A DNA stretch of 64,000 nucleotides from Streptomyces sp. TS71-3 (GTDB lineage: Bacteria; Actinomycetota; Actinomycetes; Streptomycetales; Streptomycetaceae). The position numbers and the translations under genes are program-made. The stretch is from the NCBI RefSeq assembly GCF_018327685.1, contig NZ_BNEL01000001.1, positions 3,162,001 to 3,226,000 of the forward strand, read 5' to 3'. Of the stretch, positions 22,766 through 45,013 are shown in pieces. The notes under the pieces were generated by a model, which searched no databases, was not told the origin of the DNA, and was given only the letters and a program-made list of their open reading frames with translations. Numbering within the stretch: position 1 is the first letter of the stretch; every line of letters begins with the position of its first letter.

Positions 22766-23704
22766 TCAGGCCCGGCCGTCTCCGTCGGCGCGCGCCGCCG
22801 GCCGGGGCCCGGCGGGGGAGCCCAGCAGGGACGCCGGGAGGTATCCGGACCGGACGCCCGGCTCCCACCCGTGCACCTGGACGGCGAGGGCGGCCAGGGC
22901 GAGCGCCCCGACCGGGAGCAGGGTCCGGGGCGCGGGATCGGGGCCCACGCTCTCGCGGTGCTCCACGAGCCGGGCCACGAGAGCCTGCTCGAAGGCGTGC
23001 CGGTCGTCGTCGAGGAGGACCCGCAGGAGGCGCTGGTCCGGTGTCAGGGCGGCCTCCGCGTCCAGCCGGCGGGCGGCCTCCGCGCGCTGCTCCCCGTCCG
23101 GCTTGCGCAGGGGCGCGGTGGGCCGGTCACGGGGCAGATGCCCGCGTGACGGGGCCAGGTAGCCGCACAGTGCCTCCATCGCGGCGAGGTCCGCCGGGTC
23201 CGACACCGAGTTCTGCTTCGAGTCCGGCAGCCCGTCGCGGATCGCGGGCGCGTAGTCGTCGCGCAGCAGCAGGCCGACCCCCCGCCGCCACTCCCCGAGC
23301 ACGCCGCTGACCAGGCATACCGCAAACCCGTCGCACCACGTCCGGGCCGTGGGGGCCAGCTCGACGATGTCGCCGAAGGCGATGGACCTGCTGCTGAGGC
23401 TCTCGTCGATGAGGGGGAACGGGATCTCCTGGTCGCCCTTGGGGAAGCAGCCGAGGCTCAGCGTCCCCAGCGAGCACTCCGCCGCGGTCCGCAGTGCCGT
23501 GCGCGCCGACGGCCGGAGCGCCGGGTCCTGCGCGGCCCGGGCGGCGACGTGGTCGAGGAGGTCGTCGCGTATCTCGTCGAGCTTCTCGGGGGAGGCGTCG
23601 GCGTACCGCATCCAGTGCCACCCCCGATAGGTCCGGCCTGTGATGTCTTCGAGCGCCCGGGCCAGGTACCGCTCGCCGACCTCGTGGCATGTCACTTCCG
23701 GCAC
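22766..23704 (-). CDS. Imm49-like immunity protein, orphan
   Basis: A 312-residue soluble protein resembling the immunity protein 49 family of polymorphic-toxin systems: segments RTWCDGFAVCLVSGVLGEWR, ADLAAMEALCGYLA, LTPDQRLLRVLLDDDRHAFE and LPVGALALAALAVQVHGWE, and a C-terminal RSGYLPASLLG. Such proteins neutralise a secreted toxin of siblings. No toxin gene is next to it: one side is a truncated transketolase, the other a divergent flavoprotein. I choose the GTG at 23704, nine bases after GGGGGAAGG; the ATG at 23713 touches that SD and is less likely. Confidence 0.7.
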   Translation of the reverse strand: MPEVTCHEVGERYLARALEDITGRTYRGWHWMRYADASPEKLDEIRDDLLDHVAARAAQDPALRPSARTALRTAAECSLGTLSLGCFPKGDQEIPFPLIDESLSSRSIAFGDIVELAPTARTWCDGFAVCLVSGVLGEWRRGVGLLLRDDYAPAIRDGLPDSKQNSVSDPADLAAMEALCGYLAPSRGHLPRDRPTAPLRKPDGEQRAEAARRLDAEAALTPDQRLLRVLLDDDRHAFEQALVARLVEHRESVGPDPAPRTLLPVGALALAALAVQVHGWEPGVRSGYLPASLLGSPAGPRPAARADGDGRA

Positions 23705-23864
23705 GGATGGCATCCTTCCCCCGCTCCCGTCCTGGACGCGGCACGCTACCAGGGCGGGCTCGCCGGAAGCCGTGCCGCACCGGGCGATCCGGCCCGCGAG
23801 AACACGCCCCGGCCAGGCGCACACCCTCGGTGAATATCACACGACACGCAGTTACGATCTTCTC

Positions 23865-33038: not shown

Positions 33039-33923
33039 TCACCAGCGCAGGGTGATGCCGGACTCCTCCTCCAGGAGGGCTACGGGGAGGAGTTCGCCGT
33101 CCACGGGCCCATAGCGCTCCAGGGCCCGCCGGTGAAGTCTCAGGACGGCGTCCGTGATCTCGTGCGGCGTCCCGAGGAGCGACGCCGCGTCGGCCACGGC
33201 GGCCAGCTGGTCGTGGATGCGGTGGAGCGGGTACGAGCGGAGATAGTCGCCCTCGAAGAGGGCTTCGAGGTCGTGCCGTATGAAGTCGCTGGCCGCGGCG
33301 CTCCCCGCAAGAGCGTCCCGCAGCACGGCCGGATCGATGCCGACCCGGCGGCCGAGCAGGAGCGCCTCCGCGGTCGCGGCGGCCTGGCCGAACCACAGGG
33401 CGTTGACCAGGAGCTTGGTGGTGTAGCCGGCATCGTGCCCCCCGACGTGCGCGATGCGGTCGGCGGGGGCGAGCGCCTCCAGCAGCGGGCGGCACCGCGC
33501 CACGACCTCGGGGTCTCCGCCGACGAACAGCCGGAGCCGGGCCTCCCGCGCATCGTCCGGGCCTCCCCCGAGAGGGGCTTCGAGCACCTCGACGCCGTGC
33601 GCGCGGGCGCGATCCCTGATCGGACCGGCTGCGACGGCGGTGTTGCTGGTCATGTCGATCCAGACGGCATCCGGAGCGAGCGCCTCGAACACCGCGTCGT
33701 CCAGTGCCGCCGCCACCTCGGCCGGCCCCGGTAGTACGGTGACCAACGCCTCCGCGCCGGCGGCGGCGGACGTGGCCGACACCTCCGGGGACGCCCCGGC
33801 GTCGAGCGCCACGCGCGACAGCTCCGGCCTGACGTCGAAGGCCGACACACGGTGTCCCGCCCTCACGAGGTTGGCGCACACGGGGGCACCCATGCGCCCC
33901 AGACCCAGAAGTCCGATTCTCAC
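33039..33923 (-). CDS. Beta-hydroxyacid dehydrogenase-like NAD(P) oxidoreductase
   Basis: A 294-residue 3-hydroxyisobutyrate dehydrogenase-family protein. The cofactor motif GLLGLGRMGAPVCANLVRAG is at residues 3-22, the substrate loop reads APLGGGPDDAREARL (usual form D-A-P-V-S-G-G), and the catalytic Lys lies in GYTTKLLVNALWFG. The GTG at 33923 begins right before the Rossmann strand. It lies on the same strand 190 bp downstream of the long acyl-CoA operon and might be its distal gene, but the gap makes this uncertain. Confidence 0.87.
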   Translation of the reverse strand: MRIGLLGLGRMGAPVCANLVRAGHRVSAFDVRPELSRVALDAGASPEVSATSAAAGAEALVTVLPGPAEVAAALDDAVFEALAPDAVWIDMTSNTAVAAGPIRDRARAHGVEVLEAPLGGGPDDAREARLRLFVGGDPEVVARCRPLLEALAPADRIAHVGGHDAGYTTKLLVNALWFGQAAATAEALLLGRRVGIDPAVLRDALAGSAAASDFIRHDLEALFEGDYLRSYPLHRIHDQLAAVADAASLLGTPHEITDAVLRLHRRALERYGPVDGELLPVALLEEESGITLRW

Positions 33924-34110
33924 GTCGCCGGAGCTTAGACCCTGCCCTGTGCGTCCCGCGCGGTGAGGCGGATGCCGTGCGGCCGTATGCCGGCGGGTTC
34001 CGGCGAAGGCCGGGCGGGCGGTGAGTGGCTGAGGCCCGGTGTCCTGCTGTTGCCACTGCCGCCGCCACCGCTGTCGCTCCCGCCACCGCTGTCCACCGCT
34101 GTCGCTCCCG

Positions 34111-34725
34111 CTACCGCTGCCCGCGCGGAAGCGGCATCTCCAGCCCGCCGCCCCGCGCCCCCGTCTCCTGCGAGCCGGGCGCCGAGCCGGCACCCGGCCC
34201 GGGGCCCGGCTCGGGGCCCGGCGCCGGTCCCGACCCGGGCTCCGGCTCGGCCTCGCGCACCAGCCGGTTGGAGAGCGCCAGGAGCGCCATGGCGACCGCG
34301 ATCCCCGGCTCACCGAGCACGGCGGCGTAGCGCCGCAGCATCGCGTTCTCCTCGGCGAGGTCGGTGGCCGGCAGGCGTGCCGCCCGCCGCTCGCGCTGCC
34401 GTTGCCGTGCCAGGCGTGCGCGCCGCAGGAGCTGTGCGATCAGCTGCTCGTCCAGCACCACCAGCGGGTCGGCGCCGTCGGCGGGTTGGCGGACGCCCGC
34501 TGCCAGCCGGGGACTCGCCGCCAGGGGACTCGATGCCGCCGGGGGACCAGCCGCCGGGGGATCCGCCGCCGGGGGACCAGCCACCGCGGGACCCGCCGCT
34601 GGGGGGCCAGCCACCGGGAGACCAGCCACCGGGGGGCCCGCCGCCAGGGCACCCGCGGCCGCCAGGGAACCCGCCGCCGGGGGACCCGAGGCCGTCACCG
34701 TTCCCTCGCCGTTCGCGTCAGCCAT
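34111..34725 (-). CDS. Repeat-rich protein ending the acyl-CoA operon
   Basis: A 204-residue protein whose start codon overlaps the end of the flavoprotein gene by 8 bp, so it belongs to the operon. The N-terminal 65 residues are pentapeptide-like A-G-P-P-A repeats from a 15-bp array. The middle is a charged helix (LDEQLIAQLLRRARLARQRQ, then LAEENAMLRRYAAVLGEPG) followed by a hydrophobic ALLALSNRLV, and the end is again G-P-rich. No family recognised. The helical core might bind a partner enzyme. Confidence 0.65.
   Translation of the reverse strand: MADANGEGTVTASGPPAAGSLAAAGALAAGPPVAGLPVAGPPAAGPAVAGPPAADPPAAGPPAASSPLAASPRLAAGVRQPADGADPLVVLDEQLIAQLLRRARLARQRQRERRAARLPATDLAEENAMLRRYAAVLGEPGIAVAMALLALSNRLVREAEPEPGSGPAPGPEPGPGPGAGSAPGSQETGARGGGLEMPLPRGQR
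34536..34688. repeat. In-frame 15-bp tandem repeat, ten units
   Basis: Units of the form ccgccgggggaccag, nine of 15 bp and one of 18 bp, encode the A/G/P-rich N-terminus of the last gene in the operon. Units differ at a few positions. Confidence 0.88.
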
Positions 34726-36823
34726 GGCGGTCCACCGTCCGGCGAGCGGCCGTGCGCGCCACGATGCGGTGGGCGGCGCGCAGGCCCTCGGCGGTGGCCC
34801 GCACCGCGTTCAGGCGCTCGGTGCCCCGGGCGCCGCCCGCCACCTCGTACGGCACGCCGGCGGTCCGCAGCACCCCGGGCACGGGCTCGGGCCGCTGGCC
34901 GGTCGCCAGGACCACGCTGTCCGCGGCCACCAGCAGCGGTTCGCCGTCCGCGTTCTTGACCAGAACGCCTTCGTCCGTGATCTCCTCGTACGTGACGCCG
35001 GTCAGCATCCGCACCCCGGCCGCCTTGAGCCGGCCCATGACCACCCAGCGGGTGCTCGGGCCGATGCCGTCACCGATCCGCCCGGTGCGCCGCATCAGCG
35101 TCACCTCGCGCCGGGGGCCGCCGAGCGCGCCCCCGTCCCGGCCGGCCACCGTCCCCGCCCGGCGCGGCGCCTGCCCCGCCAGTCCGTACGCCGCGAGGAA
35201 CTCCTCGGGCGCCGGTTCGCACGCGGCCCCCGAGTGGCAAGTGACGAGCAGGTGCGCGAGGTCCACGGCGATCCCGCCGCCGCCCACGACCGCCACGCGC
35301 TGCCCCAGCGCGCCCGGATCGGCGAACGCCCGCGTGTAGTCGCGCACATGGGGCAGGCCGGCGCCGGGCAGTTCCGGGAGCGCCGGGCGCACACCGGTGG
35401 CCACCACCACACCGTCGCACGCCCGCAGCGCTGCCAGGTCCCCGGGACCGACCCGGTGCCCCAGGTGCAGCCGGGCACCGAGCGCGGCCAGCTCGCGCAC
35501 CCGCTGCCGCACCGACTGGGCGAAGTCCGCCTTGCCCGGCACCAGCGCCGCCAGCCGGAACTGCCCGCCCGGCTCCGCCTCCGCCTCGTACACATCGACC
35601 GCGTGGCCGAGCCGGGCGAGGGTGCGCGCGGCCTCAAGGCCCGCGACGCCGGCGCCGACCACCGTGTACCCGCCGGGGTGCCCGGACCGCCGCAGCGGGA
35701 AGTCCGCCTCGTGGCCGGCCCGCGGGTTGACCAGGCAGGAGACGCGTTCCGTGCCGAAGGAGCGGTCGATGCACGCCTCGTTGCAGGCGATGCACACGTC
35801 CACCGCCTCGGCGCGCCCCGCCCGCGACTTCGCCACGATCCGGGGATCCGCGAGGAAGGGCCTCGCCATCGCCACGAAGTCGGCGCCGCCGCGCGCCAGC
35901 ACCTCCTCCGCCTGCGCGATCCGGGTGAAGCGGTTGGAGGCGATCACCGGCACGTGCCCGTGGCCCGCCGCCCGCAGCGCCCGCTTGACGTCCTCCGCGA
36001 CGCCCGCCCAGGCCCCGGCCGGCACTTCCGCCTGCACGGTGGGCACCCGCGACTCGTGCCATCCGACGCCGATGGCCAGCGCGTCCACGCCGGCCGCGGC
36101 GAGCGCCACGGCCAGCGCGGCCCTGTCCCCGGCGGGCGTGCCGTCCTCGACGAGGTCGGCGCCCGACATCCGGAAGAGCACCGGGAAGCCGGCCCCGGCC
36201 GCCGCGCGCACCGCGCGCGCCACCTCGATCGGGAACCGGAGGCGCCGCCGCGCGTCACCGCCCCAGCCGTCCGTGCGGCGGTTGGTGCACGGCGCCGTGA
36301 ACTGGTTGATCAGGTAGCCCTCGGAGCCCATCACCTCGACCGCGTCGAAGCCGAGTTCGCGGGCGGCCTCGGCACCCCGCGCGAAGTCGCCGGCCGTCCG
36401 CGCCACCTCCGCGCCGGTCAGCTCGCGCGGCGTGGCCCGGGAGAACGGGCTGTACACCGGCGACGGCGCCAGGGGCACCCCGCCGCCCGGCCCGCCCGGC
36501 AGCGCGTACCGGCCCGCGTGGAACAGCTGGAGCGCGATCCGGCCCCCCGCGTCGTGCACCGCCCGTGCCGCGCGGCGCAGGGCGGCCCGGTGCCCGGGGT
36601 CGCCGACCACGCCGTACCCGGGGCCGCCGGCCCCGGCGGCCGAGACCGCCGTGCCGCCGGTCACGACGAGCGCGGCGCCGGCCGCGCGCTCCGCGTAGAA
36701 CGCGGCGAGCGCGGCGCCGCCGTCGTCCAGCGCCTCCAGGTTGAGGTGCATGGCGCCCATCACGATGCGGTGCGGCAGGGCCAGGCCGCCGATCGCGCCG
36801 GGCCGGAAGACGTGGTCGTACAC
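34718..36823 (-). CDS. 2,4-dienoyl-CoA-reductase-like iron-sulfur flavoprotein
   Basis: A 701-residue FadH-type enzyme: an Old-Yellow-Enzyme FMN barrel (residues 1-350), the cluster-binding cysteines in CIACNEACIDRSFGTERVSC, and an FAD/NAD half with GAGVAGLEAA and GGGGIAVDLAH. It should use NADPH to reduce a conjugated ring or dienoyl-CoA. It starts at GTG 36823, 34 bp after the SDR gene, with GGAGAG as SD. In the cyclohexanecarboxyl-CoA pathway an enzyme of this class (AnsM-like) is part of the gene set; that role here is inferred. Confidence 0.9.
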   Translation of the reverse strand: MYDHVFRPGAIGGLALPHRIVMGAMHLNLEALDDGGAALAAFYAERAAGAALVVTGGTAVSAAGAGGPGYGVVGDPGHRAALRRAARAVHDAGGRIALQLFHAGRYALPGGPGGGVPLAPSPVYSPFSRATPRELTGAEVARTAGDFARGAEAARELGFDAVEVMGSEGYLINQFTAPCTNRRTDGWGGDARRRLRFPIEVARAVRAAAGAGFPVLFRMSGADLVEDGTPAGDRAALAVALAAAGVDALAIGVGWHESRVPTVQAEVPAGAWAGVAEDVKRALRAAGHGHVPVIASNRFTRIAQAEEVLARGGADFVAMARPFLADPRIVAKSRAGRAEAVDVCIACNEACIDRSFGTERVSCLVNPRAGHEADFPLRRSGHPGGYTVVGAGVAGLEAARTLARLGHAVDVYEAEAEPGGQFRLAALVPGKADFAQSVRQRVRELAALGARLHLGHRVGPGDLAALRACDGVVVATGVRPALPELPGAGLPHVRDYTRAFADPGALGQRVAVVGGGGIAVDLAHLLVTCHSGAACEPAPEEFLAAYGLAGQAPRRAGTVAGRDGGALGGPRREVTLMRRTGRIGDGIGPSTRWVVMGRLKAAGVRMLTGVTYEEITDEGVLVKNADGEPLLVAADSVVLATGQRPEPVPGVLRTAGVPYEVAGGARGTERLNAVRATAEGLRAAHRIVARTAARRTVDRHG

Positions 36824-36857
36824 GAAGGCTCTCCAGTCGGCTGCTCGTCGGCGGGCG

Positions 36858-37844
36858 TCAGCCGGACCTGGTGGGGCGCGGCGGCAGGTGCAGCGCGGGG
36901 CCGGCGTCCGCGAAGAACGGGGGCGCGACCACGCTCAGGCCGCCGTCGACCACCAGCGTCTGCCCCGTGATGTAGCCGGCGCCCTCGCCCAGCAGGAAGT
37001 GGATGGTGGCGGCGACCTCGTCCACCGTGCCCGTGCGCCGGGCCGGGATCCGGTCCAGGACGCCCCGCATCGGCGGCATCCCCTCCACGCCGTAGAAGTA
37101 CTCCAGCGAGTCGGAGCCGATCAGGCCGCCGTTGACGGCGTTGACGTTGATGCCGTACGGCGCGAACTCCACGGCCATGTACCGCACCCAGGACTCGATG
37201 GCGGCCTTCATCCCGCCCAGCGCCGCGTAGGTCGGGTACGCGCGCACCGACCCGTACGAGGACAGCGCGACGATCCGCCCGCCGTCGTCCATCAGCTTCA
37301 CGGCCTCCTGGGCGCCCAGCACGAACGGCCGCAGGTTCATCGCGTACGACCGGTCCAGGTGGTGCGGCTTCAGGTCGGCGATGTTCTTGAAGGCGCTGGC
37401 CGCGGCGTTGGACACGAAGTGGTCCAGCCGCCCGCAGCGCCCGGCCACCTCGTCGAACAGGTCCCTGATGCCCTCGGTGGTCTCCACGTCGGCCCGCACC
37501 GCGAAGCCCCGGCCGCCGGCCTCCTCCACGCCCGCGACGGTCTTGGCGGCCAGGTCGGCGTTCCGCTTGTAGTTGACGACGACGGTGCCGCCGTCGCGGG
37601 CGAGGGTCAGCGCGAGCGCGCGGCCGATGCCCCGCGAGGCCCCGGTGATCAGCGAGACCCGCTCCCGGGGGTCACGCGGGGCCCGGTCGGCCTTCTGGCG
37701 TGCGCTCGCCTGCGTGATGCTCTCCTGCGGAACGCTCTCCTGCGTGATGCAGTCCCGAGGGGCGCTCGCCTGCGCGACGGACTCGCGCGGAACTGCCTCC
37801 CGAACGACGCTCTCCTGCGGAACGCTCTCCTGCGCGACGCTCAT
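36858..37844 (-). CDS. SDR enoyl reductase, candidate 1-cyclohexenylcarbonyl-CoA reductase (ChcA-like)
   Basis: A 328-residue SDR. Residues 1-50 are an odd low-complexity tail (repeats of Q-E-S-V-P and Q-A-S-A); the enzyme proper starts with ERVSLITGASRGIGRALA. The catalytic region is SSYGSVRAYPTYAALGGMKA, in which Tyr and Lys keep a FabL-like spacing, and it ends with GYITGQTLVVDGGLSVV. This sequence class holds enoyl-thioester reductases. The start overlaps the acyl-CoA dehydrogenase stop (ATGA). In a cyclohexanecarboxyl-CoA operon it would reduce the ring double bonds, as ChcA does. Confidence 0.85.
   Translation of the reverse strand: MSVAQESVPQESVVREAVPRESVAQASAPRDCITQESVPQESITQASARQKADRAPRDPRERVSLITGASRGIGRALALTLARDGGTVVVNYKRNADLAAKTVAGVEEAGGRGFAVRADVETTEGIRDLFDEVAGRCGRLDHFVSNAAASAFKNIADLKPHHLDRSYAMNLRPFVLGAQEAVKLMDDGGRIVALSSYGSVRAYPTYAALGGMKAAIESWVRYMAVEFAPYGINVNAVNGGLIGSDSLEYFYGVEGMPPMRGVLDRIPARRTGTVDEVAATIHFLLGEGAGYITGQTLVVDGGLSVVAPPFFADAGPALHLPPRPTRSG
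37703..37838. repeat. In-frame repeat at the SDR N-terminus
   Basis: Degenerate copies of gctctcctgcggaac and gctctcctgcgtgatgc-like blocks encode the Q-E-S-V-P/Q-A-S tail of the SDR. The periodicity is 12-15 bp with drift, and every unit is a multiple of three. Confidence 0.75.
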
Positions 37845-39007
37845 CGGACGCCCTCCCGCACCGTGCCGCCGTCGCGCCGCATGAGCTCGCGGAAGACGAC
37901 CGCCTTCTGCACCTCGTTGGTGCCCTCCTCGAAGCGCTGCGCCCGCGCGTCGCGGTACACCCGCTCCATCGGCTGCGACTTCCAGTAGCCGAGGCCGCCG
38001 TGGACCTGGAGCGCCCTGTCGGTGACGTCGGTCAGCATCGTCACCGCGTGCATCTTCGCCATCGAGGACTGCATCGCCGCGTCGTCGGCGCCCTCCTCGA
38101 AACGGCGGGCGGCGTGCAGGACGAGCCGGCGGGCGGCCTCGATGTCGGCCTCGTTCTCGGCCAGCATGAACTGGATGGCCTGCCGCTGGGTCAGCGCCTT
38201 GCCGAACGTCACCCGGCGCGCCGCATAGGCGAGGGCGAGCTGCTGGGCGCGCGCCGCGAGCCCCACGCAGCTCATGGCGACCGAGATGCGCGACGGCGTG
38301 AGGAACCCGCCGAGGAAGACGTCCAGGCCCTCGCCCTCCGCCCCGAGCCGGTGCGCCACCGGGACCGGCGTCCGGTCGAAGGCCAGCGACGCGTGGTCGG
38401 TACCGGTGACCCCCATCGTCCGGGAGGTCTCCCGGGCGGTGACGCCCGGGGCGTCGCGGGGCACCAGCAGCGCGACGGTGCCCTCCTTGCCGGTGGTGCC
38501 GTCGACGCGGGCCGCCAGCAGGTAGTAGTCGCAGCGCACCCCGAAGGTGATCAGGTGCTTGCGGCCCGACAGGTAGTAGGTGCCACCCCGGCGCTCCACC
38601 GAGGTGGTGATGTCCGCGCCGGTGCCGTTGCCCGGCTCCGTCAGGGCGAACGCGATCCTGATCTCGCCGGTGACCGACGGGACGACGAACAGCTTGCGCT
38701 GCTCCTCGGTGGCGTGCCCGTCCATGGCCCGCCAGATCCCGTTGACCACGTGCACGATCATCCGCACCGAGCCGTGCGAGCGGGAGAACAGCTCCATCAG
38801 CTCCATCCAGCGGCCGAAGCCGAGGCCGTGGCCCCCGTAGGCCACGGGCGCCGGGATCCGCAGGAAGCCGAGGCCGCGCAGCTCGCTCCAGAGCTCCTCG
38901 GGCACCTCCCCGGTCTCCTCGATGCGCTCCGCCCAGCGCTCGCCGGGCCCCTCCACCCAGGCCGCGACCCGCTCGCGGAGCCGGTGGAACTGCCGATCGT
39001 CCGTCAT
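37841..39007 (-). CDS. Acyl-CoA dehydrogenase
   Basis: A 388-residue FAD acyl-CoA dehydrogenase with the three usual parts: N-terminal helices (PAPVAYGGHGLGFGRWMELM), a central barrel with FALTEPGNGTGADITTSV, and C-terminal helices with QVHGGLGYWKSQPMERVYRD and FEEGTNEVQKAVV. AGGGAG precedes the ATG at 39007. It lies between the EPSPS/ligase fusion and the SDR in one operon. Enzymes of this class (AnsJ-like) desaturate the ring CoA-ester in the cyclohexanecarboxylate route; inferred here. The 134-bp gap upstream has imperfect repeats of gctcgtcctacc and no gene. Confidence 0.9.
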   Translation of the reverse strand: MTDDRQFHRLRERVAAWVEGPGERWAERIEETGEVPEELWSELRGLGFLRIPAPVAYGGHGLGFGRWMELMELFSRSHGSVRMIVHVVNGIWRAMDGHATEEQRKLFVVPSVTGEIRIAFALTEPGNGTGADITTSVERRGGTYYLSGRKHLITFGVRCDYYLLAARVDGTTGKEGTVALLVPRDAPGVTARETSRTMGVTGTDHASLAFDRTPVPVAHRLGAEGEGLDVFLGGFLTPSRISVAMSCVGLAARAQQLALAYAARRVTFGKALTQRQAIQFMLAENEADIEAARRLVLHAARRFEEGADDAAMQSSMAKMHAVTMLTDVTDRALQVHGGLGYWKSQPMERVYRDARAQRFEEGTNEVQKAVVFRELMRRDGGTVREGVR

Positions 39008-39141
39008 CTGCTCCCTCTGCCTTCCGTCTTCCCTTGTCCGGGGGCGGGCCGCCGCACCGGCGGGCCACCGCTACCGGCCCACCACGACGGCTCCCGCCAC
39101 CGGCGCTCGTCCTACCAGCGCTCGTCCTACTGGCCGTCGTC

Positions 39142-42100
39142 CTACCGACCCGCCGTGTCCTGCGCGCGGAAGCCGGCCGCCCACCTGCGCAGCTCGAACT
39201 TGAGCACCTTGCCGGCGGGGTTGCGCGGCAGCGCCTCGACGAGTTCCAGCCGCTCGGGCCAGTACGGCTTGGCCACCCGGTGGGCGTCCAGCAGGCGCTG
39301 CACGTCGGCCAGGACCGGCCGCGCGCCGGCCGCCGGGACCACGAACGCGCAGGCGCGCTCGCCGAGCCGTTCGTCGGGCATGGCCACCACCGCGACGTCC
39401 GCCACGTCCGGGTGGGCGAACAGCAGCTGCTCGATCTCGCCGACCGGCACCTTCTCGCCGCCCCGGTTGATCACGTCCTTGACGCGCCCGGTGATCCGCA
39501 GGCAGCCGGCGGCGTCGATGGCCGCGAGGTCGCCGGTGCGGTACCAGCCGTCCGCGGTGAACGCCTCCGCCGTCAGGTCGGGGCGGCCGAGGTAGCCGTC
39601 CGTCGTGGTGGGGGAGCGCAGCTCGAAGTTGCCCTCCAGGCCGGCCGGCAGCACCTGCCCGGCGTCGTCGGTGATCCGCAGATCGACGCCGTCCAGGGCC
39701 CGTCCGTCGGAGCCCCAGCGCTGTTCGGGCTCGTCCCCGGGGGCGGCCAGCGTGGCGAGGCAGGTCTCCGTCGTGCCGAAGGCCCCGCACACCGCGGCGC
39801 CCAGCACGCTGCTCGCGTGCTCGGCGAGGCTGCGCGGCACGGTGGCGCCGGTGGCCACGAAGATCCGCAGGGCGTCCGGCGCGTGACCGGTCTCCTCGAC
39901 CACCTTCACCAGGTCCGCCAGGAAGGGGGCGGCGGCCTGCACGAACGTCACGCCATGGTCGTCCAGCGCGCGCAGCGCCCGCTTGGCGTCGTAGTCGGCC
40001 TGCACGACCTGCGGCACGCCCAGCACCGCCGCCAGCACCATGCCGTACAGGAAGCCGGTCTGGTGCGCGAGCGGGGAGGGCACCCAGACCACGTCGTCCG
40101 CGCCGAGGCCGAGGTGGGCGATCCCCATCGCCGCCGCCCGGACCAGGTTGGCCGTCGGGTGGGTGACGCCCTTGGGCTCCCCTGTGGTGCCGGAGGTGAA
40201 GAGCAGCTGGGCGGTCGTCTCCGGCGTCGGCGTGAACGCGTCGAGCGCCGCGCGGTCGATGGTGACACGTGCCAGCTCCGCGCCGAGGTCGGCCACGGCC
40301 GGGCTACCTACGAGGCGGTCCACCGCGGAGTCGCCCCCGAGTCCGTCCGCCGCCGGGCCGCCCCCGAGTCCGTCCACCGCGGGGTCGCCCTCAAGGCCGT
40401 CCGCCGCCGGGGCCCCGCCGCGGGAGGCCGGGAGCCGGGCGGCGTCGCCGTCGGCGCCGAGCACCAGCAGGTGCGCGAGGCCGCCGCGGTCCTGGGCCGC
40501 CAGCGCGAGGACCTCCTCGGCGGGCCGCCGGGTGCGGTAGGCGTCCGCGACGACCAGCACCCGCGCGCCCGAGCGCCGCAGCACGAAGCCGAGCTCGCGT
40601 TCCCGGAAGAACGGCATCACCGGGCAGCACACCGCCCCGATGCGCCAGCAGGCCATCGAGAGCACCACGAACTCCACCCGGTTCGGAAGCTGGTAGGCCA
40701 CGCTCTCACCCGGCCGCACGCCGAGCCCGAGGAGCAGGGCCGCCGCGCGGTCGACGCGTTCCGCCAGCTGGGCCCAGGTCACCACCTCGTCGTGGTCGGA
40801 GCGGACGTCGACCACGGCGGTGCCGTCCGGCCGCGCCTGAGCCCGGCGCCGCAGCCACTCGGGCAGCGTGACCGAGGCGGCCCGCTCCGGCGCGAGCGCC
40901 TCCCCTTCCTGCGCGAGCGCCTCCCGTTCCGGACGCCGTCCGGCCGGTACCGCCACCCGGGAGAGGGGACCGCGGCCGGCCTGAACCGACATCGGCAGGC
41001 CGAGGGTGTTCATCGTCTCCAGGAACGTCGGGTAGGAGATCCGGTAGGCGCCCGGATACGTCAGCGTGGAGTGGCCGCGGGCCCGCGAGGCCGCCACCGC
41101 CAGGGCCATCAGGACGCGGTGGTCGTTGTAGGAGGACAGCCGCGCGCCGGTCAGCGTCTCGACGCCGCGCACCCGAAGCTGCTCGCCCGTCATCTCCAGG
41201 CTGCCGCCCATGGCGCGGAGCTGGAGCATCGCCCCGGCCCGGTCGGACTCCTTCAGCCGGGTGTGGGCGATGTTGCGGAACACCGACTCGCCCTCGGCGA
41301 AGGCACCGAGCGCCGAGAGCACCGGGAGCATGTCCGGTACGTCGCGGCAGTCGACGTCCACGGCCCGCAGCGCCGGCGCGTCCTGCACGATCCGCAGCCC
41401 GCCCGCGTCCGGATCCGGCTCCATGGGAACGCCCATGTCGCGGGCGATGTCGAGGAAGTGGAACTCCGGGTGGTCCGCCGGCCCGCCCGCCAGGCTCGTG
41501 ATGCCCCTGAGCAGCACGTCGCAGGGGTGCAGGGCGGCCGCCGCGACGGCGAAGGCCGCGGAGCCGATGTCCGGCGGCAGCGTCAGCTCGGCGGGCCGGG
41601 CCTGCTGGCCCCCCTCGACGTCGAAGCGCCGCCAGTCCGGGGAGACCGCCACCTCAAGCCCGAACCGCCGCATCATCGCGACCGTCAGCTCCAGGTAGGT
41701 GCGCTCGTTGAGCTCGCCCTCCACCTCGACGGTGGTCGGGCCTGCGGCGAACGGCGCGAGCAGCAGCAGCCCCGAGATCCACTGCGACAGCGTGCCGGGG
41801 ATGGCCACCTTCCCGCCGGTGGGCCGGTGGGCCGCCACCCGGACCGGCGGGCAGTCGTCGGCGGACTCCAGCCGGACCCCCATCTGTTCCAAGGCGCGCA
41901 GCAGCGGGCCGACCGGTCGGCGCTTGAAGTACTTCTGCCCGCTCACCACGACGGGCCGCTCGGACAGGGCGGCAAGCCCGATCATGAAGTAGAGGGTGGT
42001 GCCCGAGCTGCCCGCCGACACCGAGCCCCGGCGCGGCCGGTAGCGGCCGCCGAGCCCGTCCACCACGAAGGTGTGGCCCTCGCGGGCGATCCCCACCCCG

Positions 42101-42279
42101 AGGCCCCGCAGCACCTGCACGGTGTACTCGACATGCCGGGCGTCGGACAGCCCGTGCACGCGGCTGACACCGCCGGCGAGCGAGGCCAGGATCAGGGCGC
42201 GGTGCGCGTGGTACTTGGAGTTGGGGACGAGGACCTCACCGCTGAGCCGGTGCCGGGTCCCTGGAACGAGAAGGTGCAT
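39142..42279 (-). CDS. EPSP-synthase-like/acyl-CoA ligase fusion
   Basis: A 1045-residue natural fusion. Residues 1-430 form an EPSP-synthase fold: NSKYHAHRAL (Lys22 and Arg27 as in E. coli numbering, but Ser23 is Tyr), GSSGTTL, LSQWISG, RDVPDM, RLKESDR (Lys343/Glu344) and SYNDHR. The active-site lysine near the C-terminus of true EPSPS is replaced (YRISYPTF). After a linker, residues 475-1045 form an ATP-dependent acyl-CoA ligase with TSGTTGEPKG at about 694, GAFGTTET, WYRTGDL and the A10 Lys1024 (NPAGK). It heads the operon. The pairing fits dehydration of a shikimate-derived ring followed by CoA activation. A 27-bp repeat lengthens the ligase's N-terminal lobe. Confidence 0.92.
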   Translation of the reverse strand: MHLLVPGTRHRLSGEVLVPNSKYHAHRALILASLAGGVSRVHGLSDARHVEYTVQVLRGLGVGIAREGHTFVVDGLGGRYRPRRGSVSAGSSGTTLYFMIGLAALSERPVVVSGQKYFKRRPVGPLLRALEQMGVRLESADDCPPVRVAAHRPTGGKVAIPGTLSQWISGLLLLAPFAAGPTTVEVEGELNERTYLELTVAMMRRFGLEVAVSPDWRRFDVEGGQQARPAELTLPPDIGSAAFAVAAAALHPCDVLLRGITSLAGGPADHPEFHFLDIARDMGVPMEPDPDAGGLRIVQDAPALRAVDVDCRDVPDMLPVLSALGAFAEGESVFRNIAHTRLKESDRAGAMLQLRAMGGSLEMTGEQLRVRGVETLTGARLSSYNDHRVLMALAVAASRARGHSTLTYPGAYRISYPTFLETMNTLGLPMSVQAGRGPLSRVAVPAGRRPEREALAQEGEALAPERAASVTLPEWLRRRAQARPDGTAVVDVRSDHDEVVTWAQLAERVDRAAALLLGLGVRPGESVAYQLPNRVEFVVLSMACWRIGAVCCPVMPFFRERELGFVLRRSGARVLVVADAYRTRRPAEEVLALAAQDRGGLAHLLVLGADGDAARLPASRGGAPAADGLEGDPAVDGLGGGPAADGLGGDSAVDRLVGSPAVADLGAELARVTIDRAALDAFTPTPETTAQLLFTSGTTGEPKGVTHPTANLVRAAAMGIAHLGLGADDVVWVPSPLAHQTGFLYGMVLAAVLGVPQVVQADYDAKRALRALDDHGVTFVQAAAPFLADLVKVVEETGHAPDALRIFVATGATVPRSLAEHASSVLGAAVCGAFGTTETCLATLAAPGDEPEQRWGSDGRALDGVDLRITDDAGQVLPAGLEGNFELRSPTTTDGYLGRPDLTAEAFTADGWYRTGDLAAIDAAGCLRITGRVKDVINRGGEKVPVGEIEQLLFAHPDVADVAVVAMPDERLGERACAFVVPAAGARPVLADVQRLLDAHRVAKPYWPERLELVEALPRNPAGKVLKFELRRWAAGFRAQDTAGR
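40307..40414. repeat. In-frame 27-bp tandem repeat, four units
   Basis: Four 27-bp units (40307-40333, 40334-40360, 40361-40387, 40388-40414) encode G-D-P-A-V-D-G-L-G-type nonapeptides inside the ligase half of the fusion protein, in a surface loop before the ATP-binding motif. Confidence 0.88.
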
Positions 42280-44026: not shown

Positions 44027-45013
44027 CTAGACGAGTAAGTCCTAAGTTCTGGGGTGCCGATCGGGCATGAAGAGAGGGTGTTCAAGATCATGTTGTGACG
44101 CAAGACCTGAACACCCTCTTGACTGCACTGTACGTGAAGATCGACGACGAGCTGGGAGGGTCCCGATGGAGGGGCAGACCGCCCGTGCTGACCGACTCCG
44201 AACTGGTCTGTGTCGCGGTCGCCCAGGCGATGCTTGGCTTCACCTCCGAGGCTCACTGGCTGCGCTATGCCCGCAAGCACCTGCGGGATCTGTTTCCGTA
44301 CCTGCCGCAGCAGTCGGGCTACAACAAGCGGCTGCGGGCCGCGCTCGGGCTGGTCAAACGGGTCATCCGGATGCTCGCCACATCGAGCGACTTCTGGCTC
44401 GACGACTGCTGGATCGTGGACTCCACCCCGGTGCCCTGCGGTATGTCCCGGCCCACGGTGAAGCGCTCGGACCTGGCCGGATGGGCGGGCTACGGCTACT
44501 GCGCCAGCCACTCGCGCTTCTACTGGGGGCTGAAGCTGTACCTGGTGTGCACACCGGCGGGCATGCCGATCCTGTGGGCGCTGGCCGACCCGAAGATCGG
44601 CGAGCGAGAGGTGCTGGCCGCGATGCTCGAAGTCGACGCCGGCGTGGCTGCCGAGCACGACGGCATCCTCCTGATCTGCGACAAGGGCTTCGCGGGCCGG
44701 GACTTCGAAACACTGCTGGGCGAGTACGGCATCACGATGCTGCGGCCGTCCCGCAAGGATGAGAAGCGCCGCTATGGCGAGCCGATGCTCAAGAAGGTCC
44801 GGCAGCTGATCGAGTCGGTCAACGACACCCTCAAGGGCCAGCTCGACCTGGAAGACCACGGCGGCCGCTCCTTCCAAGGGGTCGCTGTCCGCGTCGCTCA
44901 ACGTGTCCTCGCGATGGCCGCCGCCATCTGGCACAACAACGCAACCAACGCACCGATCACCCGGTCACTGATCGCCTACGACCACTGACCGGAGATCGCA
45001 CTTACTCGTCTAG
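44027..45013 (+). mobile_element. IS982-family insertion sequence
   Basis: A 987-bp element bounded by perfect inverted repeats CTAGACGAGTAAGT (44027-44040) and ACTTACTCGTCTAG (45000-45013). It contains one intact transposase gene. The outer CTAG may be a four-base target duplication, in which case the element is 44031-45009 with 10-bp ends. Its right end abuts a beheaded FAD monooxygenase gene. Confidence 0.85.
44095..44988 (+). CDS. IS982-family transposase
   Basis: A 297-residue DDE transposase, full length for its family. WIVDSTPVPCG carries the first Asp, LLICDKGFAGRDFE the second, and IESVNDTLKGQLDLE the Glu region. GYGYCASHSRFYWGLKLYLV is the conserved RNase-H-like core. Starts at GTG 44095. 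No frameshift or stop is visible, so the element may be active. Confidence 0.93.
   Translation: MTQDLNTLLTALYVKIDDELGGSRWRGRPPVLTDSELVCVAVAQAMLGFTSEAHWLRYARKHLRDLFPYLPQQSGYNKRLRAALGLVKRVIRMLATSSDFWLDDCWIVDSTPVPCGMSRPTVKRSDLAGWAGYGYCASHSRFYWGLKLYLVCTPAGMPILWALADPKIGEREVLAAMLEVDAGVAAEHDGILLICDKGFAGRDFETLLGEYGITMLRPSRKDEKRRYGEPMLKKVRQLIESVNDTLKGQLDLEDHGGRSFQGVAVRVAQRVLAMAAAIWHNNATNAPITRSLIAYDH

Follow-up and report, generated by a model that had tools for sequence, protein, structure and literature searches.

In the phoslactomycin/lactomycin gene clusters the genes plmJK, plmL, ChcA and plmM follow one another in this order, are annotated as an AMP-dependent synthetase and ligase, a CoA dehydrogenase, a cyclohexenylcarbonyl-CoA reductase and an NADH:FMN oxidoreductase, respectively, and are stated to provide cyclohexanecarboxyl-CoA (CHC-CoA) as starter (PMC5852498). 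The same paper names one Streptomyces platensis strain as a published phoslactomycin host (PMC5852498). We analysed a 64,000-nt stretch (C1:3162001-3226000, hereafter the window) of the 9.79-Mb genome of Streptomyces sp. TS71-3, in which a minus-strand gene run reading from position 42279 down to 34111 encodes the four enzyme classes of the phoslactomycin cassette of Streptomyces sp. HK803 and its pnP/lmP counterparts, with their order unchanged. The first phoslactomycin protein is fused, as the name plmJK implies, like the first protein here (P0001). However, in the present case no polyketide synthase (PKS) lies in the window, a chorismate-mutase (CM) paralogue and a 3-hydroxyisobutyrate-dehydrogenase-like open reading frame (ORF) follow the cassette, and two of the proteins, the fusion and the short-chain dehydrogenase/reductase (SDR), carry extra repetitive stretches. 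The ansatrienin genes ansJKLM plus chcA and the CHC genes of asukamycin presumably represent the same pathway classes as this operon, and ansJ and ansK are, as we take from their names, separate genes, whereas here a single polypeptide covers both.

We consider it probable, at about 0.82 as judged from the sequence, that these genes form a CHC-CoA operon of the type plmJK-plmL-chcA-plmM; the first-pass annotation had already assigned it to the CHC-CoA pathway, an assignment for which homology gives good support, and the enzyme classes and their order do match plmJK, plmL, ChcA and plmM as given in PMC5852498. Shikimate is very probably what the four genes convert into a building block with a cyclohexane ring. 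We infer each reaction, each substrate and the end product of the operon as follows. A remodelled domain of the 5-enolpyruvylshikimate-3-phosphate synthase (EPSPS) fold would remove the 3-hydroxyl of shikimate, not of shikimate-3-phosphate, the fused ligase would form the CoA ester, and the enzyme of acyl-CoA dehydrogenase (ACAD) fold, the enoyl-reductase-type SDR and the flavoprotein of old yellow enzyme (OYE) type would perform the reductions and dehydrations that lead to CHC-CoA. This ester would be used elsewhere in the genome, the simplest guess being initiation of fatty acids by beta-ketoacyl-acyl carrier protein synthase III (KASIII). A putative role of the fusion in channelling an unstable dehydrated shikimate is plausible. 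The operon would extend a known precursor pathway to a further strain, which is useful since CHC-CoA cassettes serve engineering, an example being doramectin, reported in PMC4581413 to be formed without CHC feeding by an S. avermitilis bkd mutant carrying such a cassette.

The domains, the gene order, the signature motifs and the homology to a cassette of known product are directly observed at this locus (Table 1). Scanning the translations with Pfam and NCBIfam profiles recovered all of the named domains far above chance, bearing out the minus-strand operon with EPSPS, ligase, ACAD, SDR and flavoprotein genes that had been described before. In P0001, EPSP_synthase matches aa 9-423 (9e-80) and AMP-binding aa 476-897 (5.9e-72), and with AMP-binding_C (7.7e-15) the complete acyl-CoA ligase comprises aa 476-1024; a glycine/alanine-rich repetitive insert lies in this ligase part at about aa 620-660, where the alignment to the fusion of another genome of the genus (G010) breaks. 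Of the start-stop overlaps claimed by the first-pass annotation, a single one can be seen clearly, the ATGA of the ACAD/SDR junction, provided that the SDR start is correct. The flavoprotein stop overlaps the next ORF by 8 nt if the annotated start of that ORF is right, and gaps of 134 nt and 34 nt separate the fusion from the ACAD gene and the SDR gene from the flavoprotein gene. The SDR start is uncertain, its N-terminus being repetitive and longer than those of its relatives. The genes named earlier are all present, but a fifth, CM-like ORF (34111-34725) had gone unnamed. The codon-position G+C bias is strong for the fusion, ACAD and flavoprotein genes and lower for this last ORF, and no value was obtained for the SDR gene, which the codon-position script missed because its open frame continues across the ACAD gene.

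Table 1. Genes of the predicted CHC-CoA operon and the ORF that follows it (window coordinates)
Feature	Position	Strand	Evidence or remark
P0001, PlmJK-type first enzyme, 1045 aa: EPSPS-like domain and acyl-CoA ligase	39142..42279	-	Pfam/NCBIfam
ACAD-fold enzyme, PlmL position; EGT catalytic glutamate motif present	37841..39007	-	Acyl-CoA_dh_1 5.5e-40
SDR, ChcA position; enoyl-reductase signature Y-X6-K	about 36858..37844	-	adh_short_C2 5.6e-56
OYE/2,4-dienoyl-CoA-reductase-like FMN and FAD flavoprotein, PlmM position	34718..36823	-	Oxidored_FMN 6.4e-63, Pyr_redox_2 1.5e-27
P0006, CM (AroQ-type) paralogue; domain about aa 85-165, start uncertain	34111..34725	-	NCBIfam 5.1e-7, below cut-off
3-hydroxyisobutyrate / 2-hydroxy-3-oxopropionate reductase-like ORF; domain from about aa 132	33039..34313	-	operon membership uncertain

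A scan of named genomes with the fusion confirmed 388 relatives, of which the best-scoring 80 were kept, and the 308 left aside may include split relatives. Using tblastn over 81 loci (80 plus L110), we found the EPSPS domain and the ligase at 81, the ACAD at 77, the flavoprotein at 66 and the SDR at 63, and all four genes stand in order on one strand at 51 of the 71 named loci where the DNA extends 7.2 kb or more beyond the fusion start. The signature motifs are conserved as well: Y-X6-K occurs in all 62 SDR relatives scored, EGT in 73 of 74 ACADs scored, and the four-cysteine pattern of the flavoprotein (CX2CX3CX11C) in each of its 64 scored relatives. The best solved relative of the SDR is the enoyl-ACP reductase FabL (3oic; E 1.6e-49), and by these sequence signatures we assign the SDR to the enoyl-reductase (ChcA-like) type.

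In each of the 80 loci the EPSPS and ligase parts share a single frame, with no stop between the beginning of the former and the end of the latter. A protein homologue search with P0001, restricted to 0.55-1.75 times the query length, so that unfused relatives were excluded by design, scored 7991 candidates and retained 757 proteins at 1e-20, and the EPSPS, AMP-binding and AMP-binding_C domains are all present in the 120 listed homologues (our own protein included), one of which, from S. platensis, is 69% identical to P0001. The fused form is therefore the usual one among the relatives visible to these searches, hence no novelty, and the first-pass annotation's view of it as a special feature is not supported, given this commonness and the name plmJK. 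What is of interest here is rather the change of the EPSPS active site across the family, together with the spread of the cassette.

For the active-site survey, the 120 listed fused proteins were aligned to E. coli AroA, whose sequence is identical to that of 1g6s. P0001 resembles AroA in its fold, in passing the curated NCBIfam aroA model (304.8 against a cut-off of 287.25 bits) and in many catalytic residues: Gly96, Arg124, Ser170, Gln171, Tyr200, Asp313, Lys340, Glu341, Arg344 and Arg386 are retained in all 120 fused proteins, and Lys22 and Arg27 in 119 each, one row being gapped. It differs from AroA, apart from the ligase fusion, at Ser23, Arg100, Ser169, Ser197 and Lys411, which we take to be ligand positions for shikimate-3-phosphate and phosphoenolpyruvate (PEP), Ser197 presumably being the serine that holds the 3-phosphate. 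P0001 retains none of these five residues, and they are changed in 117-120 of the 120 fused proteins. Thus, Ser23 is Tyr in 119 rows, with a gap in the remaining one; Arg100 is Tyr in 119 and Ala in one; the Ser169 position is a gap and Ser197 is Glu (Glu192 of P0001) throughout; and Lys411 is lost in all, being Ile in 117 (Ile414 in P0001) and Phe, Thr and Leu in one each. Asn94 is furthermore replaced by Ser in 117. The three solved AroA sequences carry Ser23, Arg100, Ser169, Ser197 and Lys411, and the separate AroA of our own genome (C1:1714309, found by E. coli AroA at 3.1e-56) shares Ser23, Asn94, Arg100 and Ser197 with the E. coli enzyme. Its regions around Ser169, Asp313 and Lys411 were split by the aligner, and the comparison at these positions uses the E. 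coli and the three solved AroA alignments. The changes should not be over-read, since our own AroA also departs from E. coli at Tyr200 and Lys340 (both His), and Asn336 is replaced by His in the fused proteins and our AroA alike; such changes at substrate positions therefore occur in a true AroA too, and not all of them are diagnostic.

Taken together, the 3-phosphate site appears to have gained an acid and the PEP site to have been weakened, a pattern that fits an enzyme dehydrating shikimate rather than transferring an enolpyruvyl group. Glu192 could act as the acid that protonates the 3-hydroxyl as it leaves unphosphorylated shikimate, and the loss of Lys411 could weaken the PEP site. The helix that bears Lys411, as distinct from the role of this residue, is treated in PMC8983318. 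It is possible, though we rate it slightly below even odds, that the EPSPS fold has been converted from a transferase into a lyase, a shikimate dehydratase feeding the fused CoA ligase. The open-licence literature searched yielded no paper that deals with how the EPSPS-like step proceeds, which is not proof of absence; the altered active site hints at how this still-unexplained first step may work, and the family-wide change at five positions makes it testable by point mutants.

The hosts of the 80 loci comprise Streptomyces, Kitasatospora, Actinoplanes, Paractinoplanes, Micromonospora, Lentzea, Streptosporangium, Microlunatus, Arthrobacter and kin, Sinomonas, Cellulomonas, Microbacterium, Homoserinimonas, Curtobacterium, unclassified Actinomycetota and Candidatus Eremiobacterota. 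Of the omega-cyclohexyl fatty acid systems Curtobacterium and Alicyclobacillus, the former shares the fusion in two genomes (two loci), and the latter is absent from the best 80 of the 388 loci; a cyclohexyl fatty acid is reported from Curtobacterium pusillum in PMC3426160. By their neighbours, the 80 loci divide into two with modular PKS genes, 34 with a FabF-like or other ketosynthase hit and 44 with none, a rough grouping in which weak ketosynthase hits were counted as FabF-like and one Paractinoplanes or Actinoplanes locus (L040) may be the end of a PKS. At the S. kronopolitis locus (L049) the cassette adjoins modular PKS genes, and its fusion groups with that of S. platensis (P0057). A tree built from 82 fused proteins places P0001 within a 20-member set (SH-aLRT 100) that holds P0057, the phoslactomycin-type L049, L040 and L045 (Paractinoplanes, Actinoplanes) and loci of Streptomyces, some of which have a FabF-like neighbour and some not. 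P0001 sits on a long branch, and the placement of such rows is unsure according to the tree tool. P0001 groups with no single neighbour context, and therefore the tree does not tell the product.

Twelve loci of Candidatus Eremiobacterota (L055-L058, L060, L061, L075, L081-L083, L091 and L092) have the cassette, complete and in order wherever a contig end does not cut it, and 11 of the 12 have a ketosynthase-like match nearby. These cassettes suggest cyclohexyl lipids in that phylum, a prediction that would follow if the dehydratase reading of the EPSPS domain were true. In general, the distribution of the cassette, which reaches from Streptomyces to Curtobacterium and to Eremiobacterota, suggests likely makers of cyclohexyl lipids or cyclohexyl-primed polyketides. 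In some lineages (L030 and, among the Eremiobacterota, L055) the neighbourhood of the cassette includes genes resembling 3-deoxy-D-arabino-heptulosonate 7-phosphate (DAHP) synthase, named by sequence reading and not by profile, which fits a feed from the shikimate pathway. In our own genome, a second class II DAHP synthase match extends over two open frames (L134-L136; C3:3417616-3418747).

Several observations weigh against the assignment to the CHC-CoA pathway. A later gene is not in place at 20 of the 71 loci, the first one missing being the SDR at 12, the flavoprotein at six and the ACAD at two. Among the families compared, only aroA, for the EPSPS domain, reaches a curated cut-off: the ligase scores 450 bits against the 792.3 required for cyclohexanecarboxylate-CoA ligase, and the ACAD 183 against 650 for cyclohexane-1-carbonyl-CoA dehydrogenase. 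The automatic names are therefore uninformative or misleading. Finally, a consumer of the CoA ester was sought in our own genome and none was found. The loci with no SDR in place belong to Arthrobacter, Cellulomonas and two Actinomycetes metagenome-assembled genomes (L059, L063, L064, L066, L067, L069, L071, L077, L085, L087, L090 and L096), where another reductase may replace it.

With regard to the consumer, whole-genome domain searches gave 28 ketosynthase and 18 acyltransferase (AT) match places, none of them between C1:3162001 and 3226000, in agreement with the first-pass annotation, which had placed no PKS in the window. As it also suggested, the product may prime either a distant PKS or omega-cyclohexyl fatty acids. 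When the loading AT of the phoslactomycin-type PKS in the genome of L049 was compared with our own loci, within which all 18 AT places fell, identities among the 14 best listed matches were 29-48%, and the best of them (48%) is situated in an extension module. The PKS cluster on C3 (1.729-1.762 Mb) was rejected on its KSQ loading module (DTAQSSS) and the 1.41-Mb cluster on C1 on its first large ORF, which opens with a condensation-adenylation module of a nonribosomal peptide synthetase; the scanned part of a type II-like ketoacyl synthase (KAS) region at C1 2.90 Mb showed no link to the cassette. Five KASIII C-terminal matches occur in the genome, none of them near the window, and as two are FabH-like, priming of fatty acids is possible. 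A consumer in the same cluster is not a strict requirement, modular PKS genes being found, by the rough grouping above, in the flanks of two of the 80 loci.

An operon without a nearby consumer might also be a transferred CHC cassette from which the consumer genes have been lost, now a silent remnant. The fusion was found at 1e-100 in only two of 61 sampled genomes (37 of them of the genus), our own and G010, with no match at this threshold on plasmids; the FabF-like and second ligase genes that come after the G010 cassette have no counterpart in the window; and both the repetitive insert of P0001 and a transposase-like ORF upstream of the operon (44095-44988) would suit such a history. However, the four cassette ORFs are full length with intact motifs, and the strong codon-position bias of three of them, the fusion, ACAD and flavoprotein genes, weighs against this reading as well; we consider a remnant unlikely.

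P0006 leaves room for another product. It might be that the operon yields a partly reduced or hydroxylated ring acid (e.g. cyclohexene-carbonyl-CoA), or serves a reducing type II polyketide pathway involving this CM paralogue at its end. P0006 scores 29.5 bits against the 73 of the curated CM model. A search with its full length returned our own locus only, and a trimmed search one listed relative, a Kitasatospora aureofaciens protein named chorismate mutase with 59% identity. Its predicted structure consists of three long helices at low confidence (mean predicted local distance difference test score 64.3), a profile built on three rows (A2) finds solved CM chains, at best with 6.6e-7, and the Pfam CM_2 model hits three places in the genome, P0006 not among them. 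A P0006-like CM gene occurs in the vicinity of the fusion in Kitasatospora mediocidica (L054; 5.4 kb away) and, 15 kb away, in G213, which gave the best match outside our own genome among the 199 genomes of the genus searched. In both cases it overlaps a gene for a MaoC/HadB-like dehydratase (L054:3817-4568, L168:2491-3215), and in G213 genes resembling those for KAS, KASIII and acyl carrier protein, recognized from BLAST hits and reading and not by profile, lie between or beside the CM and the fusion. Against this, CM genes are common, with matches at 1e-8 in 193 of the 199 genomes, and when 15 genomes with higher-scoring CM matches were examined (a selection and not the exact top 15), G213 alone had the fusion. 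As the window holds no ketosynthase match and the motifs of the cassette enzymes are intact, we consider a partly reduced or type II product quite unlikely. The link of the CM paralogue to the cassette is suggestive.

It is highly improbable that the EPSPS domain represents a second AroA of the ordinary kind and the remaining genes serve beta-oxidation. In favour of this, the domain passes the aroA cut-off, many database sources label the fused proteins 3-phosphoshikimate 1-carboxyvinyltransferase, and our own AroA also has His at 200, 336 and 340. The refuting outcome named by the first-pass annotation is thus seen in part, through the aroA cut-off, but P0001 is not the primary AroA. Against it, the genome has its separate AroA, Ser23, Arg100 and Ser197, which E. 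coli and our own AroA share, are replaced in 119, 120 and 120 of the 120 fused proteins and Lys411 is lost in all, and the SDR is of the enoyl-reductase type in a gene set equal to the published CHC cassette.

Two further members of the EPSPS family were found in the genome. One, at C1:2490224, is of the MurA type and weakly like E. coli AroA. The other, at C3:1590497, was considered as a second cassette and rejected, being MurA-like with an N-terminal HipB-type domain; such a MurA-like/HipB-type gene (L114:8455-10098) adjoins an aconitase gene. Elsewhere in the window, an ORF resembling the immunity protein Imm49 lies at 22766-23824.

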